DNA of 64,000 nucleotides, taken from the NCBI GenBank assembly GCA_021776235.1, contig JAJFGG010000152.1:1-64000 (forward strand), in the 5' to 3' direction. Position numbers and translations under genes: made by a program. This document shows, one piece after another, positions 20,996-60,416 of the stretch. The notes under the pieces were generated by a model. That model searched no databases. It saw only the letters and a list, made by a program, of their open reading frames with translations, and was not told the origin of the DNA. Numbering within the stretch: position 1 is the first letter of the stretch; each line of letters begins with the position of its first letter. This stretch comes from Alphaproteobacteria bacterium. GTDB lineage: Bacteria; Pseudomonadota; Alphaproteobacteria; GCA-2731375.

Positions 20996-21862
20996 ATGGA
21001 CTATTCCTTGGTGGTGGCGATTGAATTGGTGCGCGAGGTTGCCGGTCTGATCCTGATCGCCACCGGTCTTGCCGTCATCTTCGGGATGATGCGGGTGATC
21101 AATATCGCGCATGGCGAGTTCATGATGCTGGGCGGATATACCGTTGTTTTGACAACCAAGATGGGGGTCAATATCTGGGTGGCTATCCTTATATTGGCAC
21201 CCCTGGCTGTCGGTATTTTCGGCGTCATCGTGGAACGATGCATCATCCGCCACCTCTACGGCCGGATTATCGATTCACTGCTGGCGACCTGGGGCCTGAG
21301 CCTTTTCCTGATCGGCTTCGTCACTGTGGTCTTCGGCAACACCGTGGAAGGGGTCTCCAACCCCTTTGGCGGTTTTGCGGTCGGGCAGTACAAAGTCGCG
21401 GGGTATACCTTCTTTCTGATTTTTGCAGCCGTGGCTTTCATTGCCTCGGTCTATTTGACCTTGAAATATACCAAGGCGGGTTTGATCGCCCGGGCTACCA
21501 TGCAGAATTCGGACATGGTTGAGGCCCTCGGGGTAAATTCAAAGCATGTTTACATGGCCACCTTTGGCATCGGTGCAGCATTCGCCGGCTTGGCGGGCGG
21601 TCTTCTGGCCCCGATCAGCGGCGTGGTGCCCGGCATGGGCGCCCTGCTTATTGGCAAGGCGTTTATTACTGTTGTTACAGGCGGCGCCGCCGTCGTCGCC
21701 GGCACGTTGAGCGCATCGACCATTCTGGGAAGCATCAGCCAGGCGGTGACCTTTGCCACCAATCCGGTCTACGGCGATGCCGCTTTGTTATTCGTCGCCT
21801 TGATACTGCTTCGCCTTCTGCCCCAGGGCATTACGGGGCGCATCTTTACCCGCAGCATCTGA
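20996..21862 (+). CDS. Amide/urea ABC transporter permease 1 (LivH/UrtB-like)
   Basis: The protein has 288 residues and about eight hydrophobic segments. FGMMRVINIAHGEFMMLGGY is the conserved N-terminal signature of LivH/UrtB permeases, and LGVNSKHVYMATFGIGAAFAGLAGGL is the cytoplasmic coupling loop region. It should form the membrane channel with the LivM-type subunit encoded 24 bp downstream. Confidence 0.92.
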   Translation: MDYSLVVAIELVREVAGLILIATGLAVIFGMMRVINIAHGEFMMLGGYTVVLTTKMGVNIWVAILILAPLAVGIFGVIVERCIIRHLYGRIIDSLLATWGLSLFLIGFVTVVFGNTVEGVSNPFGGFAVGQYKVAGYTFFLIFAAVAFIASVYLTLKYTKAGLIARATMQNSDMVEALGVNSKHVYMATFGIGAAFAGLAGGLLAPISGVVPGMGALLIGKAFITVVTGGAAVVAGTLSASTILGSISQAVTFATNPVYGDAALLFVALILLRLLPQGITGRIFTRSI

Positions 21863-21886
21863 AGCCGGCGCAACCGTGAGGATTGC

Positions 21887-22915
21887 ATGTTGAGCAATAT
21901 TTCCAAGGATTGGCTGGGTGTCGGTTTTGTCACGGCCATTGGCCTGGCGGTTCTGATTTTTGTGCCAATGCTGTTCGATCTGTTTGAAGTGCTGCAAATG
22001 ACCAAGTATGTGGTGCTGTCTCTGTTTGCCTTAAGTCTGGCCTACATTTGGGGCTTCGGCGGTATCCTGAGCTTCGGCCAGGCGGGATTCTTTGGTCTGG
22101 GCGGCTATACCTTCGCCGTCTCCGCCATCAATATGGGGCAGACCACGATACCGTTCCTCATGGCCATCGCGATGTGTGCCCTGTTCGCCGCCGCCCTGGG
22201 CTATTTCATGTTTTATGGCCGATTAAATGACGTCTATTTGGGCGTGGTTACCCTGGTGGTGACGCTGATTCTGTGGAAGCTGATCAATCATACCGCAGGC
22301 CCAGAGTTTATCATCGGCAAGGCCCGTTTAGGTGGTTTTAACGGTGTGCCCTCCATACCCATCATGACGCTGCCCTGGCAGCCGGATATGGAAATGGAGC
22401 CGAGCCAGATGTTCCAGTATTTCATGGCCATTCTGATCATCGTCTATCTGTTGCTGCATTTCCTGATCAAGTCGAAGTTTGGCCGTGTCGCCATTTCTAT
22501 TCGCGAGAACGAAATTCGGACCAGCCTGCTGGGTTATGATGTGCGCCTTTACAAGCTGTGGATCTTTACTATTGGCGGCGCAATTGGCGGCGCTGCCGGG
22601 GCCATGTGGGCGACCTATCAGACCTTTATCGACCCTAATGCCTTCAGCCTGGAAGTTTCAGCGAAATGTCTGATCTGGGTTATGGCGGGGGGCGTCGGCA
22701 CCCTTTTTGGCCCCATCGTTGGCGTCATCGCGCTGGAATATCTGTCGCTGAAACTGGGCGAGACCTCTTTTCTCAACAATCTGATCATTTTAGGAACCAT
22801 TCTGATGTTCCTTGTTTTGCTGCTGCCTAAGGGGCTTTTCCCCACTTTCCGGGATCTGGTCATAAAGCTGTGGCAACGGGCAAGGGGCGGAACTTCGGGG
22901 GAGCGGCCGTCATGA
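21887..22915 (+). CDS. Amide/urea ABC transporter permease 2 (LivM/UrtC-like)
   Basis: The protein has 342 residues and about ten hydrophobic segments. FGGILSFGQAGFFGLGGYTF is the signature of LivM/UrtC permeases, and SIRENEIRTSLLGYDVRLYKLWIF is the ATPase-coupling loop. Its stop overlaps the start of the first ATPase gene by 4 bp (ATGA), so the two are translationally coupled. Confidence 0.92.
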   Translation: MLSNISKDWLGVGFVTAIGLAVLIFVPMLFDLFEVLQMTKYVVLSLFALSLAYIWGFGGILSFGQAGFFGLGGYTFAVSAINMGQTTIPFLMAIAMCALFAAALGYFMFYGRLNDVYLGVVTLVVTLILWKLINHTAGPEFIIGKARLGGFNGVPSIPIMTLPWQPDMEMEPSQMFQYFMAILIIVYLLLHFLIKSKFGRVAISIRENEIRTSLLGYDVRLYKLWIFTIGGAIGGAAGAMWATYQTFIDPNAFSLEVSAKCLIWVMAGGVGTLFGPIVGVIALEYLSLKLGETSFLNNLIILGTILMFLVLLLPKGLFPTFRDLVIKLWQRARGGTSGERPS

Positions 22916-23652
22916 CGACATCCGCCGCGCCAGCATTGCTGACCACGGCCGATCTGACCATGCGCTTTGGCGGCGTCGTGGCCGTGGATCAGGTGAATTT
23001 CACCCTGACCAGCGGCGAATTGCGTTGCCTGATCGGTCCCAACGGCGCCGGCAAAAGCACCTTCTTCAAGTGTCTGACCGGCCAGTTGAAGCCGACGGCC
23101 GGAACGATCCAGTTCAACGACCAGGAACTCAGTGGGCAGACGACACATGCGATCGTCCGCAAGGGCATTGGCATCAAGACCCAGGTGCCCAATTTGTTCG
23201 ATGGCTTGCCGGCGCGGGAAAATATCGCCCTTTCGGCGCGGCAGAACCATTCGCAGCAGCAGTCGGAAGAGATCACGGACGAGATGCTGGAGTTGATCTC
23301 CATCGCCGGTTTGGCGCACCGCGAAGTCGGTAATCTGGCCCATGGCGAACGCCAGTTGGTGGAATTGGCCATGGTCCTGGCGGGCAAGCCGCAACTGGTT
23401 CTCCTCGACGAACCGGCGGCCGGCATGACGGCCGAAGAGCGTGGACGCCTGGCTGCCGTGCTGCGCGACCTGGCGGGCCGGACGTCGCTTATTGTGGTCG
23501 AACACGATATGCAATTCATCCGGGAAATCGCGACGGAGATTACCGTCTTTCATCGCGGCCGGGTCTTTCTCGAAGGCGATGTCGCCGAGATCATGGCGCA
23601 CAGCGAAGTTCAGGAAATCTATTTGGGAAAAGAAGCCAATGGCGCTGCTTGA
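22912..23652 (+). CDS. Amide/urea ABC transporter ATPase 1 (LivG/UrtD-like)
   Basis: The protein has 246 residues. The true start is ATG 22912 (MTTSAAPALL), overlapping the permease stop and preceded by GGGGGAG. Walker A is GPNGAGKST and Walker B is LVLLDEPAAGMT. The signature reads LAHGERQLVELAM, the non-LSGGQ form usual for LivG/UrtD. The switch motif is VVEHDMQF. It pairs with the LivF/UrtE-type ATPase that overlaps its 3' end by 14 bp. Confidence 0.92.
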   Translation: MTTSAAPALLTTADLTMRFGGVVAVDQVNFTLTSGELRCLIGPNGAGKSTFFKCLTGQLKPTAGTIQFNDQELSGQTTHAIVRKGIGIKTQVPNLFDGLPARENIALSARQNHSQQQSEEITDEMLELISIAGLAHREVGNLAHGERQLVELAMVLAGKPQLVLLDEPAAGMTAEERGRLAAVLRDLAGRTSLIVVEHDMQFIREIATEITVFHRGRVFLEGDVAEIMAHSEVQEIYLGKEANGAA

Positions 23653-24346
23653 AATCCATGATCTTAGGGCGGCCTATGGTCATGTGCCGATCCTGCACAA
23701 GATCGATATGCATGTTGAGCAGGGAGAATTTGTTGGTGTGCTTGGCCATAACGGCATGGGTAAAACCACGTTGTTGCGGGCGATCATGGGGTTTGTCACC
23801 ACCAAGGGAGGCCGCATCGTCTATCAGGATCAAGAAATTCAGCGGCTGCCGACCTATCGCCGTGCCCGCATGGGCATGTCGTTGGTACCTCAGGGGCGGG
23901 AGATTTTTCCCAATTTGACCGTGCTGGAAAACCTCACGGTAGGCATTCTGGGTAAAAAGGGCTCACTCGACCGGATCGACGAGATGCTGGAATATTTTCC
24001 CCGCCTGCGACCGCTATTGGACCGCCGCGGCGGCGCCCTGAGCGGCGGCGAGCAGCAAATTTTGGCGATCGCCCGGTGCCTGTGTAATCATCCCTCTCTT
24101 ATCCTGCTGGATGAACCGACCGAAGGCGTGCAACCTTCCATCATCCATGAAATCAGTGAAGTATTGCAGAAACTGCAAGGACAGCAGAATCTGACAATTG
24201 TACTTGTTGAGCAAAATTTGGAATTCATCGTGGGTTTGGCGTCGCGTATTTACACCATCTCGCGCGGCGTTCTGGACACCGAGATCCCAATCGATGAAAT
24301 CAAGGATTCGGCCATGGTGGCCGAATACCTCGGCTTTGGAGCCTAA
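23639..24346 (+). CDS. Amide/urea ABC transporter ATPase 2 (LivF/UrtE-like)
   Basis: The protein has 235 residues. The start is ATG 23639 (MALLEIHDLRAAYG), inside the last codons of the preceding ATPase gene; the open frame continues far upstream but that part is not coding. Walker A is GHNGMGKTT, the signature LSGGEQQILAIARCL, and Walker B LILLDEPTEGVQPSII. The segment DEPTEGVQPSII is characteristic of the UrtE branch and supports urea or short amide transport over branched-chain amino acids. Confidence 0.92.
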   Translation: MALLEIHDLRAAYGHVPILHKIDMHVEQGEFVGVLGHNGMGKTTLLRAIMGFVTTKGGRIVYQDQEIQRLPTYRRARMGMSLVPQGREIFPNLTVLENLTVGILGKKGSLDRIDEMLEYFPRLRPLLDRRGGALSGGEQQILAIARCLCNHPSLILLDEPTEGVQPSIIHEISEVLQKLQGQQNLTIVLVEQNLEFIVGLASRIYTISRGVLDTEIPIDEIKDSAMVAEYLGFGA

Positions 24347-24379: not shown

Positions 24380-25900
24380 ATGACCGTGCAACAGCCTACC
24401 GACGAGCAAGTATACGAAATCGCCGAACAACTCGGCCTGAACGTTGACGAAGCCAAGGTGGCGTTACTGCAGCCCCGCTTCGCCGATTATGTTGCCGCCT
24501 ACAAGGCGGTTGACGAGATGGCCGATCCGTTGCCGGAGGTCAAATATCCGCGTACCCCCGGCTATCGGCCCACAGGCGCGGAAAACCCTCATAACGCCTG
24601 GTACTACAAGACCGAAATCAAAGGCGCGGCGGCGGGTAATTTGGTGGGTAAGACCGTCGCGCTGAAAGACAACGTCATGTTGGCCGGCGTGCCCATGATG
24701 AACGGTTCCGCCACAATGGAAGGCTTCGTACCCAACGTCGATGCCACCGTTGTGACCAGGTTGCTGGATGCCGGCGCCACGATCTTGGGCAAGGCCCATT
24801 GCGAATGTTTTTGCCTCTCCGGCGGCAGTCACACCAACGCCACCGGCAACGTTGATAATCCAAGGGCGCCTGGCTATTCCGCCGGTGGTTCGTCCTCGGG
24901 CAGCGCGGCCCTGGTCGCGGCGGGCGATGTGGATATGGCTATTGGCGGCGATCAGGGCGGATCGGTGCGTATCCCGGCGGCCTATTGCGGCATCGTCGCC
25001 ATGAAAGCCACTTATGGCCTGGTGCCTTATACGGGTGTCATGCCGATCGAACCCTTTGTCGACCACACCGGGCCCATGACCGCGACAGTGGCCGACAATG
25101 CATTAATGCTGGAGGCCATAGCCGGTGTGGATGGTTACGACGGCCGGCAACAGAACATCGTTACCCACCCGTACAGTGAACTGCTGGAGGGCGGCGTCGG
25201 CGGCATGAAGATCGCCGTGGTGACGGAAGGCTTTGGCCGCGAGAATTCAGAGGCCGACGTGGATGCCTATGTACGGGCGGCGGCGGCCCGTTTCGCCGAT
25301 CTTGGCGCCACGGTCGAGGAAGTCTCTATCCCCATGCATCTGGACGCCATGGCGATCTGGACCCCCATCGGGCTGCATGGCCTGACCCACACCATGATGA
25401 TGGGTGATGGTTACGGCGTCTCGCGCAGTGATTTGTATTCCACCGCCTTGATGGACTTTCACCGCGGTTGGCGGGAGCAGGCGGATTCCCTGTCGGAAAC
25501 CCTGAAGATGGCCATGATGATGGGGACCCATGTGGACAATACCGTGGGCAAGCGTCTCTATGGCAAGGCGGTCAATCTCTCCTATACCCTGCGCGCGGCC
25601 TATGATGCGGTGTTGGCGGATTATGATTTGTTGCTGATGCCGACTTTGCCTATGAAGGCGACGCCGCTGCCGACCGCGGATGATGACTGGAATTTCTACG
25701 TCGACCGCGCCTTCGAGATGCTGGAAAATACCGCACCCTTCAACATCAGCCACCATCCGTCCCTCTCCATGCCCTGCGGCATGAGTGATGGCCGTCCCGT
25801 GGGGTTGATGCTGACCGGCCGGTTCTTTGACGAGGTCACCATCTACAGGGCGGCCGAAGCGTTCGAAAAATCCGGCGATTGGACATCGTTCACCGCGTAA
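24380..25900 (+). CDS. Amidase 1 (amidase-signature family)
   Basis: The protein has 506 residues. The Ser-cisSer-Lys triad of the amidase-signature fold is intact: K96 (VALKDNVML), the cis-serine in GGSSSGSAA (about 171-172) and nucleophile S195 in GGDQGGSVRIPA. No signal peptide is visible, so it acts in the cytoplasm on imported amides, releasing ammonia. It starts 33 bp after the transporter ATPase and is very probably in the same operon. It is much closer to amidase 3 (27519-29042) than to amidase 2. Confidence 0.92.
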   Translation: MTVQQPTDEQVYEIAEQLGLNVDEAKVALLQPRFADYVAAYKAVDEMADPLPEVKYPRTPGYRPTGAENPHNAWYYKTEIKGAAAGNLVGKTVALKDNVMLAGVPMMNGSATMEGFVPNVDATVVTRLLDAGATILGKAHCECFCLSGGSHTNATGNVDNPRAPGYSAGGSSSGSAALVAAGDVDMAIGGDQGGSVRIPAAYCGIVAMKATYGLVPYTGVMPIEPFVDHTGPMTATVADNALMLEAIAGVDGYDGRQQNIVTHPYSELLEGGVGGMKIAVVTEGFGRENSEADVDAYVRAAAARFADLGATVEEVSIPMHLDAMAIWTPIGLHGLTHTMMMGDGYGVSRSDLYSTALMDFHRGWREQADSLSETLKMAMMMGTHVDNTVGKRLYGKAVNLSYTLRAAYDAVLADYDLLLMPTLPMKATPLPTADDDWNFYVDRAFEMLENTAPFNISHHPSLSMPCGMSDGRPVGLMLTGRFFDEVTIYRAAEAFEKSGDWTSFTA

Positions 25901-25933
25901 CGAACCTTACTATTGGCAAGGGAGACGAGGCAG

Positions 25934-27442
25934 ATGAAACCGACTGACAAACAGCTCCAGGATATTGCCGCGACCTTTGGCGTTACCTTGACGGCGGAGG
26001 ACGCAGAGTTCTTCTCCGCCATATTGGGTCCGCAGTTCGAACTGACGGACGCCGCCCTGACGGGACCCGATGCCTTGCCGGAGGTCAAATATCCCCGCAA
26101 ACCCGGCACCCGGCCAGCGGCCGCAGATAATCCGCTGAACGCCTGGTATTATAAAACCGAGGTAAAGGGCGCCGCCGAAGGCAAACTGGCCGGCAGGACC
26201 GTCGCCTTGAAGGATACCGTGTTGTTGGCCGGCGTGCCTCTGATGAATGGCGCCTCGGTCATGGAAGGCTATGTGCCGGAAGTTGATGCCACGATTGTGA
26301 CCCGCATGCTGGATGCGGGCGCCACCATCACCGGCAAGGCGGTCTGCGAGTATTTTTGTCTTTCGGGCAGCAGTTACACCTCGTCCACGGGCCCGGTGCA
26401 TAATCCCGTCAAACATGGCTATTCGGCGGGCGGCTCGTCGTCGGGCAGCGCCGCGCTGGTGGGCGCGGGCGCCGTGGACATGTCCATCGGCGGCGATCAG
26501 GCCGGCTCCATCCGCATTCCGGCGGCATTTTCTGGCATCGTCGGCATGAAACCGACCCATGGCCTGGTCCCCTATAGCGGCATCATGAGTATGGAAATAT
26601 CCATTGATCACGTGGGGCCGATGACCGCCAATGTGGCTGACAACGCTTTGTTTCTGGAGGTGCTGGCCGGACCCGACGGCTATGACTGCCGGCAGGCCGG
26701 CGTGCGGGCCGACAGCTATACCGAGGAACTGGACCGTGGCGTCGAAGGCCTGCGCATCGCTGTCGTCGACGAGGCCTTCGGCCTGGAAGAATCCGAAGAA
26801 GCGGTTGATGCGGCCGTCTTGGCGGCGGCCGATCTGCTGGCCGGCCTGGGCGCCAAGGTAGAGCGAATTTCGGTGCCCATGCATAGGGACATCGGCAATA
26901 TCTACCTGCCCATGATCGCCGAGGGCATGGTGCGCCAGTTTACCTTTGGCGGCGGCGTGGCCAGTGGGGCGGCGGGCTTCTATCCACCCAGCCTGATTGA
27001 GAAAATCAATGCCGCCGGACGGCGGGCCAATGAATGGCCCGATACGGTGAAAGCCATGACCTTGCTGGGCGCCTGGGTCAGCCAGACCTATGGCGGACGC
27101 ATCTACGGCAAGGGGCAGAATCTCAAGCGCCAGGCCACGGCCCAATATGCGGAACTGTTCAAGGATTGGGATCTGCTGCTGACGCCGACCCTGCCCATGG
27201 CGGCCATGCCCTTGCCCGGCGAGGGCGCCGACCGGTTGAGCAAGATCGAACAGGCCTGGTGCATGCTGGCAAATACCTCGCCCTACAACTATACGGGTAA
27301 TCCGGCCATCTCGGTGCCCTGTGGCCGCAACGCCGACGGCCTGCCGGCTGGATTACAGTTGATCGGCCGTCACTACGACGAACGTACGATTTACCGCGCG
27401 GCGGCGGCGTTCGAGGCCAACTTCGATTGGCGGGAATCGTAA
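25934..27442 (+). CDS. Amidase 2 (amidase-signature family)
   Basis: The protein has 502 residues from ATG 25934, which follows GGGAGACGAGG; a TTG at 25913 is unlikely. The triad is K93, the cis-serine in GGSSSGSAA and S192, but the nucleophile motif reads GGDQAGSIRIPA with Ala where the other two amidases have Gly. Residues around the pocket diverge (for example SSYTSSTGPV against SHTNATG), so a different amide is probably used. It is the last gene of the transporter operon and faces the third amidase. Confidence 0.92.
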   Translation: MKPTDKQLQDIAATFGVTLTAEDAEFFSAILGPQFELTDAALTGPDALPEVKYPRKPGTRPAAADNPLNAWYYKTEVKGAAEGKLAGRTVALKDTVLLAGVPLMNGASVMEGYVPEVDATIVTRMLDAGATITGKAVCEYFCLSGSSYTSSTGPVHNPVKHGYSAGGSSSGSAALVGAGAVDMSIGGDQAGSIRIPAAFSGIVGMKPTHGLVPYSGIMSMEISIDHVGPMTANVADNALFLEVLAGPDGYDCRQAGVRADSYTEELDRGVEGLRIAVVDEAFGLEESEEAVDAAVLAAADLLAGLGAKVERISVPMHRDIGNIYLPMIAEGMVRQFTFGGGVASGAAGFYPPSLIEKINAAGRRANEWPDTVKAMTLLGAWVSQTYGGRIYGKGQNLKRQATAQYAELFKDWDLLLTPTLPMAAMPLPGEGADRLSKIEQAWCMLANTSPYNYTGNPAISVPCGRNADGLPAGLQLIGRHYDERTIYRAAAAFEANFDWRES

Positions 27443-27449
27443 AAAAACT

Positions 27450-27480
27450 GGGGCGCTGCCTCATCTGGATGCAGCGCCCC
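27450..27480 (-). terminator. Intrinsic terminator between convergent amidase genes
   Basis: GGGGCGCTGC (27450-27459) and GCAGCGCCCC (27471-27480) form a perfect 10-bp stem with an 11-nt loop. On the minus strand it is followed by AGTTTTTTT, making a strong terminator for amidase 3. It starts 7 bp past the amidase 2 stop and could also stop that transcript less efficiently. Confidence 0.85.
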
Positions 27481-27518
27481 GAATTCCCGGGTCAGTAGCC
27501 CGGAAGTACTCTATATTT

Positions 27519-29042
27519 TTACATGGATTTCCATTTCGTGCCCAATTCAAAGGCATGGGCGGCGCGGTAAATCGTGGATTCGTCAAAATGTTTGCCGACC
27601 AACTGCATGCTGACCGGCAGGCCTTTTGACATGCCGCATGGTATCGCCATGGCCGGGTGATGAGTGATATCGAACGGTGCCGTATTGTAAAGCATCTCGA
27701 GCGCCCGTTGGACATATTCCTCACGCGAGGCGTCAGGACCGGGCAGGGGGGTCGCCTTGACTGGCGTCGTCGGCATCACCAGTAAATCGTAATCGGCCAA
27801 CACCGCATCGTAAGCGGCCGTCAACAATCGGGTGATGTTCATGGCCTTGCCGTAATAGCGGCTGCCGTGTTGATTGTTGATATAGGTTCCGAACATGGTG
27901 AAAAGCTTGGTCGTCTCCGACATCTCGTCGGCCCGCTCGCGCCAGCCACGATGTTTGTCCATCAGGGACGTAACGTAGAGGTCCGGCCGGCTGCTGCCAT
28001 AGCCGTCGCCATGCATCATGGTCTGGGTCAGGCCTTCTATGCCGATGGGCAGCCACAGCGCGCCGCCCAGGGTATGCATGGGGATCGAGACTTCTTTCAC
28101 CTTGGCGCCCAGGGATTGCAGTTTCTTGACGGCGGCGCGGACCTTGGTGTTGACATCACTTTCCGCGTTCTCCGCCTGGTAGCCTTCCTTGACGACGGCT
28201 ATCTTCATACCCTTGAGACCCTTGGCACCGTCTTCCAACGCCTTGGTATAGCGTTGTGTCCTGACGTTGTATTGACGCGGATCGTAGCCGTCGTCGCCGG
28301 CGATGGCTTCCAGCAACAGGGCATTGTCGGCCACGGTATTGGTCATCGGGCCGGTGTGGTCCACATAGATCTCGATAGGCATGATGCCGGTATAGGGCAC
28401 CAGGCCGTGGGTCGCTTTCATGCCATAGATGCCGCAATACGAAGCCGGCATGCGGATGGATCCGCCCTGGTCACCGCCCATGGCCATGTCGACTTCCCCG
28501 GCCGCGACAAGGGCAGCACTGCCCGAGGACGAGCCGCCGGCGGAATAACCCATCTTGTGCGGGTTATGCACGGCGCCGGTGGCATTGGTGTGGCTGCCGC
28601 CCGACAGGCAAAATGATTCACAATGCGCCTTGCCGACGATAGTGCCGCCAGCATCCAAAATGCGGGTTACCACTGTCGCATCGATCTCCGGCACATAACC
28701 TTCCAAAGTGGCGGCGCCGTTCATCATGGGCACACCGGCCAGCATGATGTTGTCTTTCAAGACGATGGTCTTGCCCTTGAGCTTGCCGCGCGCGGCGCCC
28801 TGTACGGTGGTCTTCACGTACCAGGCGTTATATTTGTTTTCATCGCCGCTGGGCCGATAACCCGGCGTCCGGGCATAGCTGGTTTGCGGCAAATTGTCGG
28901 GCATGGCGTCGATGATGTTGTAAGCCTCGACGTTGCCGCGCATCAATTCGATGTATGAGGCGATATCCGCCTCCGTCAGGTTCAGGCCGATTTCCTCGGC
29001 CACTTCCCAGAGTTGGTCGGGGGTAGGAACTTGGACCGCCAT
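27519..29042 (-). CDS. Amidase 3 (amidase-signature family)
   Basis: The protein has 507 residues. The triad is K96 (IVLKDNIML), the cis-serine in GGSSSGSAA and S195 (GGDQGGSIRMPA). It aligns with amidase 1 almost without gaps around the catalytic core (VPMMNGAATLEGYVPEI against VPMMNGSATMEGFVPNV), so the two are recent paralogues. It is transcribed towards the transporter operon from its own promoter upstream of 29042. Confidence 0.92.
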   Translation of the reverse strand: MAVQVPTPDQLWEVAEEIGLNLTEADIASYIELMRGNVEAYNIIDAMPDNLPQTSYARTPGYRPSGDENKYNAWYVKTTVQGAARGKLKGKTIVLKDNIMLAGVPMMNGAATLEGYVPEIDATVVTRILDAGGTIVGKAHCESFCLSGGSHTNATGAVHNPHKMGYSAGGSSSGSAALVAAGEVDMAMGGDQGGSIRMPASYCGIYGMKATHGLVPYTGIMPIEIYVDHTGPMTNTVADNALLLEAIAGDDGYDPRQYNVRTQRYTKALEDGAKGLKGMKIAVVKEGYQAENAESDVNTKVRAAVKKLQSLGAKVKEVSIPMHTLGGALWLPIGIEGLTQTMMHGDGYGSSRPDLYVTSLMDKHRGWRERADEMSETTKLFTMFGTYINNQHGSRYYGKAMNITRLLTAAYDAVLADYDLLVMPTTPVKATPLPGPDASREEYVQRALEMLYNTAPFDITHHPAMAIPCGMSKGLPVSMQLVGKHFDESTIYRAAHAFELGTKWKSM

Positions 29043-30547: not shown

Positions 30548-31342
30548 ATGACGACGGCAAATTGCTTCAATGACGACAATGAGTATGACTTCAACGCTAT
30601 CATCGACAGTTTGAACCGTTATCTGCGTCTCAAGGCGACGCCGATCGGCATGAAACGCTTCAAGACAGTGGCGGATATGGAGGCCGTGCCGAGAATTCGG
30701 CGCCCGGACCCCAACGAAAAGCTGGCGATGGACCAAATCGTCGGTCAATCCCGCTGGATCGGCTACACCCTTGGCATTACCATGGAAAACCTGATGGGCG
30801 CGCAATGCGGTGCCGTCATCGGTCTGCACCCGCGCAGCAAGGAATGGTTGTCCGGGGACCGGATGAAAGGCGTTTGGTACGGCACCTTGAAAGACAGTTC
30901 TGCCCATCAAAGGGCCATGAGCTGCGCTTCCTATGGTGACTATGAAGCCGTCGCGACCTCGCCCCTGGCCTCGGGCCGGCTGGACAATCCGGATATTTGC
31001 CTGATTTATATGACACCGGGACAGATGATCACTTTTATCAATGGTCTGCAGCACAGAAACTACAAGAAATATGAATTCACCTGCGTCGGCGAGAGTGCCT
31101 GCGCGGATTCCTGGGGCAAGGCGCTGAGTACCGGCGAACCGTCGGTCTCCATCCCCTGTTACGCGGAGCGTAAATTTGGCGGTGTCCAGGACGACGAAAT
31201 GCTGGTGGCGATACCGCCTAGTTTTCTGCCGGGCGTTGTCAAAGGACTTGAAGAACTTAGCCGGGTCGGCCTGCGTTATCCGATACCGAACCACGGTCTG
31301 CAAAAATCGCCCCTCGAAAGCATTTCGAAGAGCTACGGCTAA
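30548..31342 (+). CDS. DUF169-family protein
   Basis: The protein has 264 residues, with GGAG upstream of ATG 30548. The sequence fits the DUF169 family: an N-terminal YLRLKATPIGMKRFK segment, RWIGYTLGITMENLMGAQCGAVIGL in the middle, and PDICLIYMTPGQMITFINGLQ followed by VGESACADSWGKAL with conserved cysteines. DUF169 proteins are cytoplasmic and functionally undefined; they often neighbour redox or metal-dependent enzymes. Here it lies upstream of a CoA-transferase and a selenoprotein, which suggests a shared pathway. Confidence 0.8.
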   Translation: MTTANCFNDDNEYDFNAIIDSLNRYLRLKATPIGMKRFKTVADMEAVPRIRRPDPNEKLAMDQIVGQSRWIGYTLGITMENLMGAQCGAVIGLHPRSKEWLSGDRMKGVWYGTLKDSSAHQRAMSCASYGDYEAVATSPLASGRLDNPDICLIYMTPGQMITFINGLQHRNYKKYEFTCVGESACADSWGKALSTGEPSVSIPCYAERKFGGVQDDEMLVAIPPSFLPGVVKGLEELSRVGLRYPIPNHGLQKSPLESISKSYG

Positions 31343-31454: not shown

Positions 31455-32570
31455 ATGAAAGATTGTTTCTCCGGGATAGAGGTTCTGGAGATCGGGGTCA
31501 TGACGCCGGGTAAGTTCGCGGGTTTCCTGCTGGTCGGTTGGGGCGCGCGGTCGCTCCGCATCGAGCGCCCCAGCGGCGGGCCGGATACGATCAGCAACGA
31601 GGACCTGCTGCTCAACCAGGGCAAGCGTTCAATTACGGTCGATCTGCGCTCCGAGGCCGGGCGCCAGGTGGTCCACCGCCTCGCCGCCAGGGCCGACGTG
31701 GTGATCGAAGGCCATCGGCCGGGCGTCGCCGAACGCCTCGGTATCGATTGGGATACGCTTCGCGAGATTAATCAACGGCTGGTTTATTGTTCGATCTCGG
31801 GTTTCGGCCAGCAGGGGCCGGACCGTCTGCGCCCGGGCTTCGACCTGATCTTCCAGGCGGCTACGGGGCTGTTGCACGCGACGACGCCGCCGGGCGCTAC
31901 GCCCGGCGTGCCGGCGACCTTTCTTGCGGACGCTGTTTCGGGCTATGCCGCCGGTTTCGCAATCGCGGCGGCCCTCCGGAAGGCCGCGGCGGAGGGGGTC
32001 GGGTCCTATCTGGATATCTCGATGCTGGAGGCGGCGTTTTCGCTGCTCGCTGTCTCACACGGAACACAGCGTGACGGTATCCTCCCGGATCGACCCGCTT
32101 CAACCGCCGCCTACAACGTTTACCAGGCGGCGGACGGCCGCTATATCGCGATCGGCGCCGCCCGGCGGGCCTCGCGCCGGGCACTTTTCGAACACCTGGG
32201 GCGCGGCGATCTATCCGAGCGAGGCGCCATGCCAGGCGATGCGGAGGCGGCGGCATTCCTTCGTACGGCGATCGCGGCCCGGCCGGCCGAAGAATGGGTG
32301 GCGGAGCTTGGCGCACTGGATATCGAAGTCTCGCTGGTGCGCTCGCCGGCGGAAGCTTTTGCTGATCCTCAACTTCTCGCGCGTGGCATGATCGCGGCCT
32401 CGGAGCACCCGCAAGAGGGACCGCTTCGTCAGATCAATGCCGTTGCCGGGCCGGGTTCCCTTAAACTCGCGCCGGCGCCCGCAATTGGCCGCGACAACGA
32501 GGCCGTCATCGCCGAACTGGGATACAGCAAAGAGGCGGTCATCGCCCTTCGTGGCGAGGACACGGTTTGA
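31455..32570 (+). CDS. CoA-transferase family III (CaiB/BaiF type), copy 1
   Basis: The protein has 371 residues and AAGGAGA precedes ATG 31455. It begins FSGIEVLEIGVMTPGKFAGFLLVGWGA, the usual family opening, contains the strand AGRQVVHRLAARADVVIEGHRPGVAERLGI, and has the expected catalytic Asp in LADAVSGYAAGFAIAAAL, followed by GSYLDISMLEAAF. These enzymes move CoA between carboxylic acids. Substrates cannot be read from sequence. It probably activates an acid for the pathway encoded around it. Confidence 0.9.
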   Translation: MKDCFSGIEVLEIGVMTPGKFAGFLLVGWGARSLRIERPSGGPDTISNEDLLLNQGKRSITVDLRSEAGRQVVHRLAARADVVIEGHRPGVAERLGIDWDTLREINQRLVYCSISGFGQQGPDRLRPGFDLIFQAATGLLHATTPPGATPGVPATFLADAVSGYAAGFAIAAALRKAAAEGVGSYLDISMLEAAFSLLAVSHGTQRDGILPDRPASTAAYNVYQAADGRYIAIGAARRASRRALFEHLGRGDLSERGAMPGDAEAAAFLRTAIAARPAEEWVAELGALDIEVSLVRSPAEAFADPQLLARGMIAASEHPQEGPLRQINAVAGPGSLKLAPAPAIGRDNEAVIAELGYSKEAVIALRGEDTV

Positions 32571-32645
32571 CGTCGTTTTGCGGCCCGCCCTATTGCCGCT
32601 ATACTTGACGGATGCGGTACCAGCCAGAAACAAGGAATGCATAGC

Positions 32646-33521
32646 ATGAGCCATGTTGAATATATGCGACGGATCCGGGACTACTATCTGGGTCAGGGCT
32701 ATGAGAAGCCCTATACCTGGGCGCATTTCGAGGATGTTCCCTTTACGCCGCTGCAGAAGCCGCTGTCTGAATCCACGGTTACTCTGTTCTCGACATCGGA
32801 CGTCTCGGTCCGGCAAAAGGACGGCGCTGCGCTGTCGGCAGTGGAGACCACGGTCGGTGAAGTTTACTCGGTTCCCTGGAACACACCGATTGGGGAGTTA
32901 TACAGCCGGCAGGAAAGCTTCGACCGGTACGCGACCTCGCTCGATGATGTCGACTCTTACCTGCCGCTGACCCGCCTACGGGAATTCGTCGAGGCGGGAC
33001 GCATCGGTGCGGTGACACGCAGCTTTCACAACATCAACCGCGGCTACAGCCAGAAACTGATGCTGGAGACCTCGGCGCCGGCCGCTTTGGCGAAGTGCCG
33101 TGAAGAAGGGGCCGACGTCGCGATACTCACGCCCGTCTGACCCGTCTGCCACCAGACCGTGAGTCTGGTCGCACGTCACTTGGAAGAAAACGGCATACCC
33201 ACGGTGATCATTGGTGCGGCGCGCGACATTGTCGAGCATTGCGGCGTTTCGCGCTTCGTCTTCGTGGACTTTCCGCTGGGAAGCCCCTGCGGCGAACCCT
33301 TTGATGGCGATATGCAGAGCCGGGTCGTCGCTACGGCGCTGGATTTGCTTGAAACAGCCAAGGCGCCCCGCACCACCATTACCATGCCGCTTGCCTGGTC
33401 CGGGGGCGAGGCCTGGAAGGATACCGTCTTTACGGCCGAGCAACCCTTCCTTTCGCAAGACCAGGTGAAGAACTGGGAGGCGCGGAAGCAACGCTATCGC
33501 GACCAAAAAACACCAACCTAG
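32646..33521 (+). CDS. Selenoprotein of the glycine/betaine/D-proline reductase B family (in-frame TGA = Sec165)
   Basis: The protein has 291 residues when TGA 33138-33140 is read as selenocysteine; the real stop is TAG 33519-33521. ATG 32646 lies about ten bases after AAGGA. The first half (164 residues) ends ADVAILTPV and the second continues in the same frame as PVCHQTVSLVARHLEENGIPTV, so the redox motif is U165-P-V-C168. Downstream, FVFVDFPLGSPCGEP matches the family's conserved block. GrdB/PrdB enzymes use this Sec-x-x-Cys to reduce C-N bonds of glycine, betaine or D-proline. Its size is closer to PrdB (about 240) than GrdB (about 435). No pyruvoyl-type partner subunit (PrdA/GrdE-like) is seen nearby, so the substrate is open. 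A SECIS-like hairpin follows the TGA. Confidence 0.9.
33151..33169 (+). promoter_or_regulatory. SECIS-like hairpin of the GrdB/PrdB-family selenoprotein
   Basis: ACCAGAC (33151-33157) pairs perfectly with GTCTGGT (33163-33169) around a CGTGA loop. The loop begins 17 nt after the TGA and its first G is the 19th base after it, inside the known distance range for bacterial SECIS elements bound by SelB. The element lies within the coding sequence, as in other bacterial selenoprotein genes. Confidence 0.8.
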
Positions 33522-33657
33522 TGGCGTGATTGCAACGGCTAGTTTCCGTCCGTAAGGATCGGGCGCATAGCAAAAGCAGCGATGGCCGGCCGGGCGATCC
33601 CGGTCAATTCGGAAATGCGCCTGGCGACACCGTAGACAATCTACGATGGGAGAAAAC

Positions 33658-34692
33658 ATGACGAAGGAAGACTTTACCCATGGCATGAAGACCGAGCGTA
33701 TGACCGACATCGCGCTTGCCTTCAAGAAAACCGGCACGCTGCTGGCGGCGATCGAGTTGGGATTGTTCTCCCACATCTCGGGCGGTGCGGGCACGGCCGG
33801 GGAACTGGGAGCGGCGATGGGCATAGAGGCCGAGAAGGCCGACCGCTTGCTCACCGCCTGCAAGGCAATGGACCTGCTGCGCGAAGTCGATGGCCGCCAC
33901 GTCAACATGAGCGATGTGGAGCGTTATCTGGTTAAGGACAGCCGCACTTATTTTGGCGACTATCTGACCTATATCGCGCAGCGCGACTATGCCAACTGGG
34001 ACCATATCGCCGACGATCTGACGGCGGCTTCCGACGGCGACGGGCGTGACGAGCGTAGCTACCTCAATTACCTGCAGGACCCAGAGGCCGCGCGGCGCTT
34101 TACCGTTGCCGGTTACGAGGCATCCATCGGCCTGGGCCACAAACTGGCCAAGGAGTACGATTTCTCGCGATTTGGCCACTGGCTGGACATCGCTGGCGGC
34201 TCGGGCTGTTATGCAATCGCGGCCTCCGAGCGTAATCCGGATCTGCGGGTGACCATCATGGACCAGCCCAACGTGATCCTGATCGCACAGGAGTTTGTCG
34301 CCAAACATGGGCTGGAAGCGCGCATCGACACCGTGCCTGGGAACTTTCTGGAGACGCCTTTCCCCGGCGGACATGACCTGGCCTCGTACATCACGCCGTT
34401 GCAGGGTTACATGCCCGACGAGATCATCGCCGTACTGCGCCGGACACAGGATGCGCTCAAACCCGGCGGTGAAATGCTGATCATCGATTACATGCTGCAG
34501 GACGACAAGACCGGTCCGCTGGATCCGGCTTTCGTCAATTTGGCCGGCGTGCGCCGGGGCCGTTATCTCGGGCGCGTCAATACCGGTGCCGAATGGTGTG
34601 ACTTCCTTGGCCAGGCGGGCTATGTCAATGCCGTTGCGCGCTGGTTTACGCCGCATCAGCTGGGCCTGATCACCGCGCAGAAACCTGTTTAG
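33658..34692 (+). CDS. SAM-dependent O-methyltransferase-like protein with dimerisation domain
   Basis: The protein has 344 residues from ATG 33658, preceded by GGGAGAA; ATG 33646 is too close to that site. The N-terminal part (about 15-90) looks like the winged-helix dimerisation domain of plant-type O-methyltransferases (LLAAIELGLFSHI, AGELGAAMGIEAEKADRLL). The Rossmann part has the SAM motif LDIAGGSGCYAIAASERNPDL and a later ALKPGGEMLIIDYML. It could methylate a hydroxyl of a pathway intermediate; the family also includes enzymes with other activities. Confidence 0.85.
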   Translation: MTKEDFTHGMKTERMTDIALAFKKTGTLLAAIELGLFSHISGGAGTAGELGAAMGIEAEKADRLLTACKAMDLLREVDGRHVNMSDVERYLVKDSRTYFGDYLTYIAQRDYANWDHIADDLTAASDGDGRDERSYLNYLQDPEAARRFTVAGYEASIGLGHKLAKEYDFSRFGHWLDIAGGSGCYAIAASERNPDLRVTIMDQPNVILIAQEFVAKHGLEARIDTVPGNFLETPFPGGHDLASYITPLQGYMPDEIIAVLRRTQDALKPGGEMLIIDYMLQDDKTGPLDPAFVNLAGVRRGRYLGRVNTGAEWCDFLGQAGYVNAVARWFTPHQLGLITAQKPV

Positions 34693-34799
34693 GGCCTGTC
34701 CTGGAAGAATCCAACCGCCAGGCGACGCCTTGTGGATAAAACCCTGCCCCGCGGTTCCTTGAGCGTTAGCGGTTTGCAGTTCAATTGGGAGCCAGATAC

Positions 34800-35909
34800 T
34801 TGAAAGCACTTGTCATCGGCGGCACGGGACCGACCGGACCATACCTGGTGAACGGCTTAATCGCGCAGGGCTATGATGTAACGATCATGCATCGTGGGAC
34901 CCATGACAGCGATGAAATTCCCCGTTCCGTCGGGCGGATCATTGGTGATCCACATTTCCGGGAAACCATTCGCGAAGCGCTGCATGGCCGTTCGTTCGAC
35001 CTGATAATCGCGACCTACGGACGCATCCGCTATATCGCCGAACTGGCGGGCAGTTACACCGGTCGGCTGATCACGGTTGGCGGCGCGCCGTGCTTTCGGG
35101 GCGTATTGCAACCGGACGCTCTATATCCGGCCGGCCTGCAGGTGCCGCTTCCCGAGGATGCGCCGAAGATAGATAGCGAAGAGGAGTTCCGTTTCGGCTA
35201 TCTGGTTCGGCTTGCCGAAGAGGCCGTCATGCAAGGCCATGACGAGGGCCGTTACAGCGCTACGCATTTTCGCTACCCCGTGGTCTATGGTCCCCGGCAG
35301 TTGACCCCGACGGTTTGGACGATCATGCGTCGTTTCATGGACAAACGGCCGTATATGGTGCTGCCTGACGGCGGCCTGACCCTCACGACTCGCGGCTATT
35401 CCGAGAACGTTGCTCATGCCGTTCTGCTGGCCGCGCAGCAGGCCGAAACCGCAGCCGGACAGATTTATGATTGCGGCGACGAGCGCCAACTGACCATGGC
35501 GCAATGGGTCGAAGTGGTTGCGCAGGCGATGAACGGGAAAATCGAAATCATCGGTGTGCCGGATATGTACGCCTATCCGGCACGCGGTTTGATGATGTTC
35601 CATGGTCCGTCGAACCACCAGCTTTTCGACCTTTACAAGGTAAAATCGGAACTGGGTTACCGGGATGTCGTGCCCCCCCTCGACGCCATGGAACGAACCG
35701 TGCACTGGTACCAGGACAACCCGCCAGAGGAGAAACCCGAGTTCGCTGCCGATCTGGCCAAGAACTATGGCCTGGAGGATGCCATCGCTCCAGTGTACCG
35801 GGATGCCTGCAAAAGCCTGGCTGCCATCGCCTATGAAAAGCCGGATTTTCACCATCCCTACCCGCACCCAAAACAGCCCGGATTGAACAAGGACCACCGC
35901 GCCCGCTAG
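34800..35909 (+). CDS. NAD-dependent epimerase/dehydratase family protein
   Basis: The protein has 369 residues. I choose the TTG start at 34800 (KALVIGGTGPTG), eight bases after GGGAG at 34787-34791; TTG 34785 would leave no ribosome site. The Rossmann motif GGTGPTGPYL is at the extreme N-terminus, and an extended-SDR body follows (HFRYPVVYGPRQL, then YDCGDERQLTMAQWVEVV). The canonical YxxxK is not clear, so it may be an atypical family member or a binding protein. It sits in the rightward catabolic cluster. Confidence 0.82.
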   Translation: MKALVIGGTGPTGPYLVNGLIAQGYDVTIMHRGTHDSDEIPRSVGRIIGDPHFRETIREALHGRSFDLIIATYGRIRYIAELAGSYTGRLITVGGAPCFRGVLQPDALYPAGLQVPLPEDAPKIDSEEEFRFGYLVRLAEEAVMQGHDEGRYSATHFRYPVVYGPRQLTPTVWTIMRRFMDKRPYMVLPDGGLTLTTRGYSENVAHAVLLAAQQAETAAGQIYDCGDERQLTMAQWVEVVAQAMNGKIEIIGVPDMYAYPARGLMMFHGPSNHQLFDLYKVKSELGYRDVVPPLDAMERTVHWYQDNPPEEKPEFAADLAKNYGLEDAIAPVYRDACKSLAAIAYEKPDFHHPYPHPKQPGLNKDHRAR

Positions 35910-36144: not shown

Positions 36145-36777
36145 ATGTCAGGTATCGAATATTTCTACTCCGCGCATTCGGCCTTTGCCTATCTCGGCTC
36201 CGCCCGGCTGATGGAGATTGCCGCGGCGGCGGGCGCCACGATTGTCCATAAACCCGTGGATCTGCTTCGGGTCATGGTCGAATCCGGCGCCGGATCGACC
36301 CGTGAGCGTGGCGGCCGTCACCGCGACTACTATTTTGGCCGCGAGATTGAGCGCTGGTCCGAATGGCGCAATGCGCCCGTGGTGACCGGCATGCCAACCT
36401 ATCACTACAACGATACGGCATTGTGCAACGGAATGCTGATCGCCGGCATCGGACAGGGCCAAAATGTGGATCGGCTGGCGCACAGGATGCTCGAGGCCCA
36501 CTGGCGCGATGATGCGGATTTGGCCGACCGCGAGACCCTAGTGCGGCTGGCGAAGGAAATTGACCTCGACCCCGCGCCCCTGCTAGACGCCGCCCTGTCG
36601 CCGGAAGTCGCGGCCGTCTATCTGGCCAATACAGAGGAAGCCATACGCCGCTCGGTCTTCGGTTCGCCGACCTATTTTGTCAATGGCGACATGTTCTACG
36701 GCCAGGACCATCTTGAATTCGTCGAACGCGCCCTCAAGCTCCCTTTCAAGGGCGCCTGGCCGCGCGATAGGCGCTAG
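36145..36777 (+). CDS. DsbA-fold isomerase, 2-hydroxychromene-2-carboxylate isomerase-like
   Basis: The protein has 210 residues. The opening IEYFYSAHSAFAYLGS places a serine where DsbA has its CxxC, as in glutathione-dependent HCCA isomerases of the kappa-GST group. The ending FGSPTYFVNGDMFYGQDHLEFVERAL is the conserved cis-Pro and C-terminal region. It has no signal peptide, so it should act in the cytoplasm, probably isomerising an aromatic or chromene-like intermediate with glutathione. Confidence 0.87.
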   Translation: MSGIEYFYSAHSAFAYLGSARLMEIAAAAGATIVHKPVDLLRVMVESGAGSTRERGGRHRDYYFGREIERWSEWRNAPVVTGMPTYHYNDTALCNGMLIAGIGQGQNVDRLAHRMLEAHWRDDADLADRETLVRLAKEIDLDPAPLLDAALSPEVAAVYLANTEEAIRRSVFGSPTYFVNGDMFYGQDHLEFVERALKLPFKGAWPRDRR

Positions 36778-36827: not shown

Positions 36828-37634
36828 ATGGAAATCGGCGTCTCGATCCGGAACATGGGGCCGCAGTCGACCCGTGAGTTGATTGCAGCCTGCGCCCAAT
36901 CCGTGGAAGACATGGGTTTTGCCTCGATCTGGATCACGGATCACATTGCCATCCCCCCGGACGACGCCGAAGGCAGTGGCGGGCGCTATCTGGACACTTT
37001 GACCACCCTTGCCTGGTTGGCCGGGATCACCGAGCGTGTCAAGCTTGGCTCCGGGGTCCTGATCCTGCCCTACCGTGCAGCGTTGCCGACCGCAAAACAG
37101 GTCGCGACCATACAGGAACTCAGTGGTAATCGGCTGCTGCTTGGTGTCGGCATTGGCTGGATGGAGCCCGAGTTTCGCGCCCTTGGCGTGGACCGGCAGG
37201 CCCGCGGCCGCATTTCCGATGAAACCCTGGCTTTTCTGAACGCCTGCTTTTTGCAGGACGAAGTAGAGGCCAATGGTCAGAGATTCCTTTTCAAGCCGCG
37301 GCCGCAAAAACCGCCCATTCTGATTGGCGGCCGGGCGCCGCATGCCTTGTCGCGGGCCGCTAAATATGGCGATGGCTGGCTGCCGATTTCAAGGACACCC
37401 GGAAACCTGGCCGTGGCCCTGCAAAAGTATCGCGAACTAACCGCGGCAATGAACAAGCCGCCCGGACAAGTCATCGTATCGACACGGCTGCCCTTGTCGG
37501 ACCGGAGCCAAAGCCGCGAACTGCTGGATCATTACCGCACCCTAGGCGTGGACGGACTTATCTGCGGCCTGCCCTATGACACGATTGACGAGTTTAGAAA
37601 GCACCTGGAAAGCCTGAAAACGGCGTTGCATTGA
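36828..37634 (+). CDS. LLM-class flavin-dependent oxidoreductase (F420-type subgroup)
   Basis: The protein has 268 residues in a luciferase-like TIM-barrel pattern: MEIGVSIRNMGP, FASIWITDHIAIP, RVKLGSGVLILPYRAALPTAKQVATIQELSGNRLLLGVGIGWMEPEF and PILIGGRAPHALSRAAKYGDGW. This matches the short subgroup often annotated as F420-dependent, though many bacterial members use FMN. The gene follows the HCCA isomerase-like gene by 50 bp and is probably co-transcribed with it. Confidence 0.88.
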   Translation: MEIGVSIRNMGPQSTRELIAACAQSVEDMGFASIWITDHIAIPPDDAEGSGGRYLDTLTTLAWLAGITERVKLGSGVLILPYRAALPTAKQVATIQELSGNRLLLGVGIGWMEPEFRALGVDRQARGRISDETLAFLNACFLQDEVEANGQRFLFKPRPQKPPILIGGRAPHALSRAAKYGDGWLPISRTPGNLAVALQKYRELTAAMNKPPGQVIVSTRLPLSDRSQSRELLDHYRTLGVDGLICGLPYDTIDEFRKHLESLKTALH

Positions 37635-59720: not shown

Positions 59721-60416
59721 ATGGGCCAGGAAATAGAGATCAGCGCGACCGGCGGCGGTGTCTTCGCCGCCTATCTGGCCCTGCCCGCGGCCACGCCGGC
59801 GCCGGGCATCGTCCTGTTGCCGGAGGTCTTCAACACCAATGATCATATCCGCTCGGTCGTCGACGGTTACGCCGCCGAAGGCTTCACCGTCGTCGCGCCG
59901 GACGTCTACTGGCGCCAGGAGGCCGGCTGCTATCTACCCTATACCGACGAGGGGCGGGCCAAGGCGCAGGCGCTGCGCGCCGATCTGGACACCGATCAAT
60001 TCGCCGATGACCTGGCCGATGCGATTGCCGCCCTGAAAGCGCGGCCCGAGTGCACCGGCAAGGTCGGGGTGATGGGCTTTTGCCTGGGCGGCAAATTCGC
60101 TTATCTCTCCGCCGTGCGGCACGGGATCGACGCCGCGGTGAGTTATTATGGCGTACAGATCGATCAGTATCTGGATGAAGCCGACAACCTGAATTGTCCG
60201 GTCCTGATGCATTTTGCCGGTATCGATCCGCACGTGCCCCAGGCCGAGGTTGATGCGATCCAGGCGCGCATGGGGGCCTGGGACAATGTAGACATTCATG
60301 TCTATCCCGGCGCCGAGCACGGGTTTAACCGCCACGGCTATCCATCTTACAGCGAAGCGGCGGCGGCACCGGCGCGGGCGCGCAGCCTGGCCCATCTTCG
60401 CGGGCTGTTGGGCTGA
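59721..60416 (+). CDS. Dienelactone hydrolase-family protein
   Basis: The protein has 231 residues. The triad is C121 (GFCLGGKF), D169 (FAGIDPHV) and H200 (GAEHGFN), with E36 in LLPEVF, as in carboxymethylenebutenolidase. It hydrolyses dienelactones or similar esters in the cytoplasm. GGGGAGA precedes the ATG. It is 51 bp upstream of an oxidoreductase gene and probably co-transcribed with it. Confidence 0.93.
   Translation: MGQEIEISATGGGVFAAYLALPAATPAPGIVLLPEVFNTNDHIRSVVDGYAAEGFTVVAPDVYWRQEAGCYLPYTDEGRAKAQALRADLDTDQFADDLADAIAALKARPECTGKVGVMGFCLGGKFAYLSAVRHGIDAAVSYYGVQIDQYLDEADNLNCPVLMHFAGIDPHVPQAEVDAIQARMGAWDNVDIHVYPGAEHGFNRHGYPSYSEAAAAPARARSLAHLRGLLG

Follow-up and report, generated by a model that had tools for sequence, protein, structure and literature searches.

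Since 2005, marine metagenomes have yielded PrdB-like selenoproteins carrying a UxxC motif, with 42 sequences from the Sargasso Sea (PMC1088965) and 235 from the GOS data (PMC2398784). They are among the most common selenoproteins in surface-ocean metagenomes, where their label assigns them to proline fermentation. In genome collections, a 2006 survey credited a single selenoprotein family, FdhA, to the Alphaproteobacteria (PMC1794560). A later survey, from 2016, recorded 131 proline reductases from 110 organisms and termed selenoprotein-rich any organism with six or more selenoproteins; Deltaproteobacteria, Clostridia, and Synergistetes make up most of this category (PMC5029168). For D-proline reductase, selenocysteine (Sec) has been proposed to attack the alpha carbon of the pyruvoyl-bound substrate, and a cysteine thiolate to cleave the resulting selenoether; a reviewer noted that organic chemistry has no documented example of either step unless the alpha carbon is activated (PMC10298544). 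The original prediction for the locus described here stressed that a family best known from Stickland fermenters was found in an alphaproteobacterial gene cluster. This setting proved real but its novelty did not hold, since metagenomes from marine surface waters had already shown the family to be abundant there, and hence outside Stickland fermenters (PMC1088965, PMC2398784). We found no description of an alphaproteobacterial expansion lacking the partner subunit in the open-access literature that we searched.

The gene under study lies in a 64,000-nucleotide stretch of an alphaproteobacterial contig (hereafter, the window), and its features are listed in Table 1. As predicted, two adjacent ORFs join across a TGA codon into one frame of 291 codons, which contains a single in-frame TGA and ends at the TAG proposed as the true stop. 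The 291-residue product reads MSHVEYM...ILTPV-U-PVCHQTV...QKTPT, so that the predicted Sec occupies the Sec-x-x-Cys position of the family and aligns with the Sec or Cys of relatives. The selected ATG is supported by a conserved start in orthologues (MSHV, MNNV, or MEHV). Codon-position GC is similar on either side of the TGA (0.61/0.47/0.69 before, 0.63/0.47/0.72 after), and dN/dS values against three congeneric orthologues (0.04–0.11 before, 0.09–0.13 after, i.e., about 0.1 on both sides) indicate that purifying selection continues past this codon. Overall, 43 TGAs in the window are flanked by long open frames on both sides, with family support for the one at 33138 only; another Sec candidate, the TGA at 60414, was rejected because it joins two ordinary genes. 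PADLOC returned no matches on this DNA, structure prediction of the protein reached a pLDDT of 41 from five close sequences only, and a sequence search for related solved structures found none.

Table 1 Features of the selenoprotein gene and its neighbourhood in the window
Feature	Position	Strand	Evidence
DUF169 protein, upstream	30548..31342	+	PF02596, 5e-37
CoA-transferase family III (CaiB/BaiF), 75 bases upstream	31455..32570	+	PF02515, 3e-82; pairing also present in two congeners
Probable ribosome binding site AAGGA, 9 bases 5' of ATG 32646	32632..32636	+	Inferred from sequence
Selenoprotein CDS, PrdB-like (clade A), UxxC motif, 291 aa	32646..33521	+	TIGR04483, E 9e-31; orthologues 73–87% identical, TGA at same codon
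In-frame TGA, Sec165 (codon 165)	33138..33140	+	TGA in clostridial PrdB and 72 distinct relatives; Cys codons (TGC/TGT) in 10 relatives
Bacterial SECIS hairpin	33151..33169	+	Stem ACCAGAC (33151–33157)/GTCTGGT (33163–33169), 7/7 pairs; loop CGTGA (33158–33162)
TAG stop	33519..33521	+	Sequence
O-methyltransferase-like protein, downstream	33646..34692	+	PF00891, 1e-21; kept downstream in two congeners
NAD-dependent epimerase/dehydratase-like protein	34785..35909	+	PF01370, 8e-11
DsbA-like thioredoxin-fold protein	36145..36777	+	PF01323, 2e-23
LLM-class flavin oxidoreductase	36828..37634	+	PF00296, 3e-43; TIGR03619 over cut-off

The conservation of the TGA across relatives indicates that it encodes an amino acid. 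Four public orthologues (73–87% identity) all have TGA at the same codon, and exactly one in-frame TGA was found in every match from the genus that spans the site, one contig-end fragment stopping short of it, with the TGA in the aligned column in 66 distinct sequences. Such a pattern among all orthologues and all site-spanning paralogues is more than would be expected by chance. At a threshold of E 1e-20, family members were detected in 28 of 289 alphaproteobacterial genomes, mostly as TGA forms, and across all relatives column 165 is TGA in 72 distinct genes, Cys in 10, and nothing else, in line with the Sec or Cys anticipated there by the original prediction, true PrdB included. The non-TGA forms that we examined, together with two plasmid homologues (Roseomonas and Haematobacter), carry TGC or TGT at this position; for genome G081, the TAG reported falls elsewhere and the Sec column is TGC. 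All members seen share a U-P-x-C or U-P-x-D motif, with C-P in the Cys forms, which are scattered at several places among the Sec forms in the tree.

A bacterial SECIS hairpin lies 13 to 31 bases downstream of the first base of the TGA. Across the 72 distinct Sec genes, stem pairing reaches 6.32 of 7, compared to 4.43 ± 0.11 (maximum 4.72) in 500 runs of synonymous codon replacement, while the ten Cys genes (4.20 vs. a null of 4.16) appear to have lost the hairpin. The covariation score of 0.441 was not attained in any of 500 shuffles (0.166) and fell to at most 0.114 when the stem was slid. Whole-stem replacements include CAGAC/GTCTG, CAAAC/GTTTG, and GC-rich types, and the loop is CGT followed by two bases in 71 of 72 Sec genes (GGTCA in the remaining one). 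For the window gene taken individually, single-sequence folding was not significant (z = −0.9) and the synonymous-codon test gave P = 0.04; it is the family comparison, not this gene alone, that decides in favour of a SECIS element.

The machinery required for decoding was mostly recovered from the same genome. Of the four genes selA, selB, selC, and selD named in the original prediction, SelA and SelB are encoded by adjacent genes of contig C166, and SelD contains Sec as well, in a GGGUGSK motif (L025, G000:C46:22266-23192); selC, encoding tRNA-Sec, was seen in ten congeners but not in this assembly. Nine RF01852 matches in its 174 contigs include none shown to be tRNA-Sec, the eight examined being rejected as tRNA-Ser, Tyr, Cys, Phe, or Asp, and neither a pattern search nor ARAGORN detected one on the selAB contig. 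Since all ten of ten congeners encode a tRNA-Sec with anticodon TCA, its absence here likely reflects an assembly gap. The distribution of selA follows that of the TGA: it is missing from all five genomes in which Cys forms alone occur (G119, G136, G147, G206, G264) and from the Cys-form genome G081, whereas the only TGA-form genomes without it, G004 (94%) and G021 (77%), are both incomplete. In three other alphaproteobacterial genomes a clade-F-type Sec gene sits close to selA, at distances between a few hundred bases and a few kb (G203:C147, G295:C12, G077:C80), and in G077 also near tRNA-Sec, as if travelling with the Sec machinery. Overall, UGA165 is almost certainly decoded as Sec, judging from these sequence comparisons, and the gene would encode a genuine selenoprotein.

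Beyond what a single window could reveal, the main observation is that this gene is one of nine Sec-encoding paralogues in its genome, and that the family is present in all 11 genomes of the genus, with 6–11 copies each. Ordinary annotation would cut these genes at the TGA, and so the expansion is easily missed. The genus includes record SI072_bin90, which we take from its name to originate from Saanich Inlet, and the O2-using genes found next to family members suggest an aerobic life. In the tree, A, D, and F each form a single clade, while B, C, and E include genes of other genomes or split further, clade letters being working labels; the program warned of long branches, and the apparent join of clade F with PrdB may be due to them. 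Since most groups contain genes from several congeneric genomes, the duplications seem to predate the genus itself. Clade E (L044:7683-8429, with orthologues in L060, L070, L077, L082, L088, L061, and L053) retains Sec but has Asp in place of Cys168 (UPLDHQT), as does a Cys homologue (CPLDHQT, L115), which suggests that the neighbouring Cys is dispensable. Clade F proteins (L046, L047, L054, L055, L084, L100) are longer, at around 410 aa, with an additional C-terminal stretch of some 150 residues that matches no Pfam family. Selenogenes of clades C1 and E are separated by about 4–5 kb on the same strand in this genome (L044, G000:C38) and in several congeners (L060, L070, L082).

Profile comparisons place the window protein as a PrdB homologue outside of the PrdB equivalog. 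The best profile match was to TIGR04483 (PrdB), at 107 bits against a curated cut-off of 300 and 423 for true PrdB; the eight paralogues (68–139 bits) also score below this cut-off. Meanwhile, hhalign against two clostridial PrdBs gave a probability of 99.9% (E 2e-37) over 217 columns with the Sec/Cys positions in register. The homology proposed originally is thus borne out, but the identity with PrdB is not, and we rejected filing the protein under the equivalog based on its score, its motif (no U-G-x-C), and the absence of PrdA. This absence, first predicted for the immediate surroundings of the gene, extends to the whole genome: PF09338, the pyruvoyl PrdA/GrdE subunit, was found in none of 36 genomes, including that of the window (98% completeness), while it recognises clostridial PrdA and matched a control plasmid in the same search. 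It is thus very probable that the enzyme is pyruvoyl-independent and, with the partner subunit needed by PrdB-type enzymes missing, its chemistry is probably undescribed so far. Separately, a Peptoclostridium acidaminophilum plasmid includes a prdB with TGA (L103:5989-6702) and no prdA within 6 kb in its listed annotation.

The neighbours named in the original prediction (DUF169, CoA-transferase III, O-methyltransferase, and LLM oxidoreductase) were all recovered by Pfam, with neighbouring genes called by a simple ORF picker and Pfam checked on representatives only. In clade A, a CoA-transferase III upstream and an O-methyltransferase downstream flank three of four visible loci, and the orthologue in G005 has an upstream amidohydrolase gene in place of the CoA-transferase. 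CoA-transferase III genes also occur on the same strand downstream of clade C1 and upstream of clade F1 genes. These enzymes are 27–35% identical between clades A, C1, and F1, so that the pairings look independent, and adjacency for three of nine genes has a probability of about 4e-4 (given 53 copies in the genome and assuming ~6000 genes). Among the other associations, clade B1 genes are immediately followed by a glutaredoxin gene (9 loci) and mostly have a divergent acyl-CoA synthetase-type gene, clade B2 genes have as neighbours an amidohydrolase gene (Amidohydro_3) and one for a PLP enzyme of the D-serine-dehydratase type, and acyl-CoA dehydrogenase genes are divergent in clade C1 and just upstream of most clade D genes; an LLM gene lies upstream in clade E and a TauD-type dioxygenase downstream in clade F2 (synthetase, dehydrogenase, and LLM genes assigned by eye). 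One of the 53 CoA-transferase III matches (G000:C167:7557-8654) itself contains a single in-frame TGA, possibly as a selenoprotein, a frameshift, or a pseudogene. Elsewhere in the window, three amidase-like proteins (506, 509, and 507 aa, by eye; 24380-29042) adjoin an ABC transporter (20996-24346) of the type that carries branched-chain amino acids or urea.

The explanation we favour, with a probability of around 40%, is a stand-alone, pyruvoyl-independent relative of PrdB and GrdB that would cleave a CoA-activated substrate through Sec165. UGA165 would be decoded by SelA, SelB, and tRNA-Sec through the hairpin directly 3' of it, and the Sec165 selenolate would attack the substrate carbon bearing a leaving group. 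This carbon would most likely be activated as a CoA thioester provided by the adjacent class III CoA-transferase, where PrdB instead uses the PrdA pyruvoyl group. A thiol, either Cys168 in most clades or otherwise glutaredoxin or a small thiol, would then attack selenium and free R-H from R-X, with the remaining Se-S bond reduced by glutaredoxin or thioredoxin. An Se-C intermediate that a thiol opens also figures in published proposals for D-proline reductase (PMC10298544). The paralogues would represent versions of the enzyme for different substrates. We propose CoA because its thioester would supply the carbon activation, no pyruvoyl protein is encoded, and the neighbouring genes are CoA-centred; that the substrate is CoA-bound is nonetheless somewhat doubtful when considered as a separate claim, given that the linkage rests on gene order and that CoA-transferases are common in this genome. 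As in the original prediction, we infer a reductive reaction different from that of the Stickland enzymes.

A truncated 164-aa product or a pseudogene, for which one could cite the tRNA-Sec not seen in this assembly, is extremely improbable: the TGA is kept in all orthologues and paralogues that span the codon, the SECIS stem covaries, selection persists downstream, and SelA, SelB, and SelD are present alongside the tRNA-Sec of congeners, so that we rejected this reading on sequence grounds. More credible, if still a minority possibility, is a general thiol-disulfide or peroxide-type redox protein running a Sec-x-x-Cys selenenyl-sulfide cycle with glutaredoxin as donor, acting on disulfides, sulfoxides, or oxidants without cleaving carbon-heteroatom bonds. 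This would fit both the UxxC motif, which for marine PrdB has been classed with the thiol-redox motifs (PMC1088965), and the glutaredoxin gene found immediately after clade B1 genes. However, UxxD and CxxD forms in clade E and its Cys homologue offer no internal Se-S pair, the profile comparison shows homology with a subunit of a C-N reductase, and divergent paralogues beside different catabolic genes suggest substrate-specific enzymes.

That homology, and the amidohydrolase and PLP enzyme adjoining clade B2, could also be read as a Stickland-like C-N reductase acting on D-proline or another amine with a different, unrecognised carbonyl subunit. We consider this unlikely, as PF09338 is absent from 36 genomes with a positive control, no neighbour common to all clades would serve as a universal partner, and neighbours of the TauD and LLM types, which use O2, speak against a strictly anaerobic host. 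Improbable as well, and more so, is a detoxification in which a halide or comparable group would be reductively stripped from carbon without CoA, as with deiodinases or the GrdB-like protein implicated in monofluoroacetate reduction; in Cloacibacillus, where eight GrdB paralogues are predicted to contain Sec, a GrdB/GrdE-like pair implicated in fluoroacetate reduction is upregulated by this compound (PMC10838667), but that system keeps a GrdE-type subunit.

Returning to the CoA-dependent stand-alone reductase, its broadest form would be a new class of selenoenzymes, probably from aerobic bacteria, in which single-subunit Sec reductases cleave carbon-heteroatom bonds of CoA-activated substrates, the CoA thioester replacing pyruvoyl, with some nine forms of differing substrate specificity within a single genus of marine Alphaproteobacteria; we regard this generalization as unlikely. 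The proline-fermentation label applied in metagenomes seems to be wrong for the group to which the window gene belongs, as the partner enabling proline reduction is missing. The expansion also places an alphaproteobacterial genus in the selenoprotein-rich category, and the reaction could be approached directly through the UxxD clade, the naturally occurring Cys forms, and the adjoining genes.

Among known systems, the window protein shares with PrdB (TIGR04483) one domain of ~240 residues (217 columns aligned), the same Sec column, Cys at +3, and His at +4. It differs in having Pro after Sec, as do all family members seen with Sec, where the two clostridial PrdBs have U-G-T-C, in the extra N- and C-terminal segments, and in the lack of PrdA in the genome. 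The GrdB, GrdF, and GrdH selenoprotein B subunits of glycine, sarcosine, and betaine reductases (PF07355, TIGR01918) are matched in their C-terminal half; however, the window protein scores 36 bits vs. 65 for TIGR01918, has no Pfam match at E 0.001, and has no GrdE. The proteins of Roseomonas and Haematobacter plasmids named by NCBI as "glycine/sarcosine/betaine reductase selenoprotein B family protein" are 43–45% identical and of the same length, with CPVCHQT or CPICHQT, but have Cys for Sec, and the Cys forms as a group show no SECIS pairing above chance. The GrdB set of Cloacibacillus porcorum MFA1 is similar in comprising multiple Sec paralogues proposed to act on different substrates (PMC10838667), yet belongs to an anaerobe with a full glycine reductase system and GrdE partners. 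Finally, the Sargasso Sea and GOS PrdB-like proteins (PMC1088965, PMC2398784) share the family name, the UxxC motif, and the marine setting, whereas these are metagenome sequences likened by name and motif, for which we did not find paralogue number, partner absence, or neighbours described.
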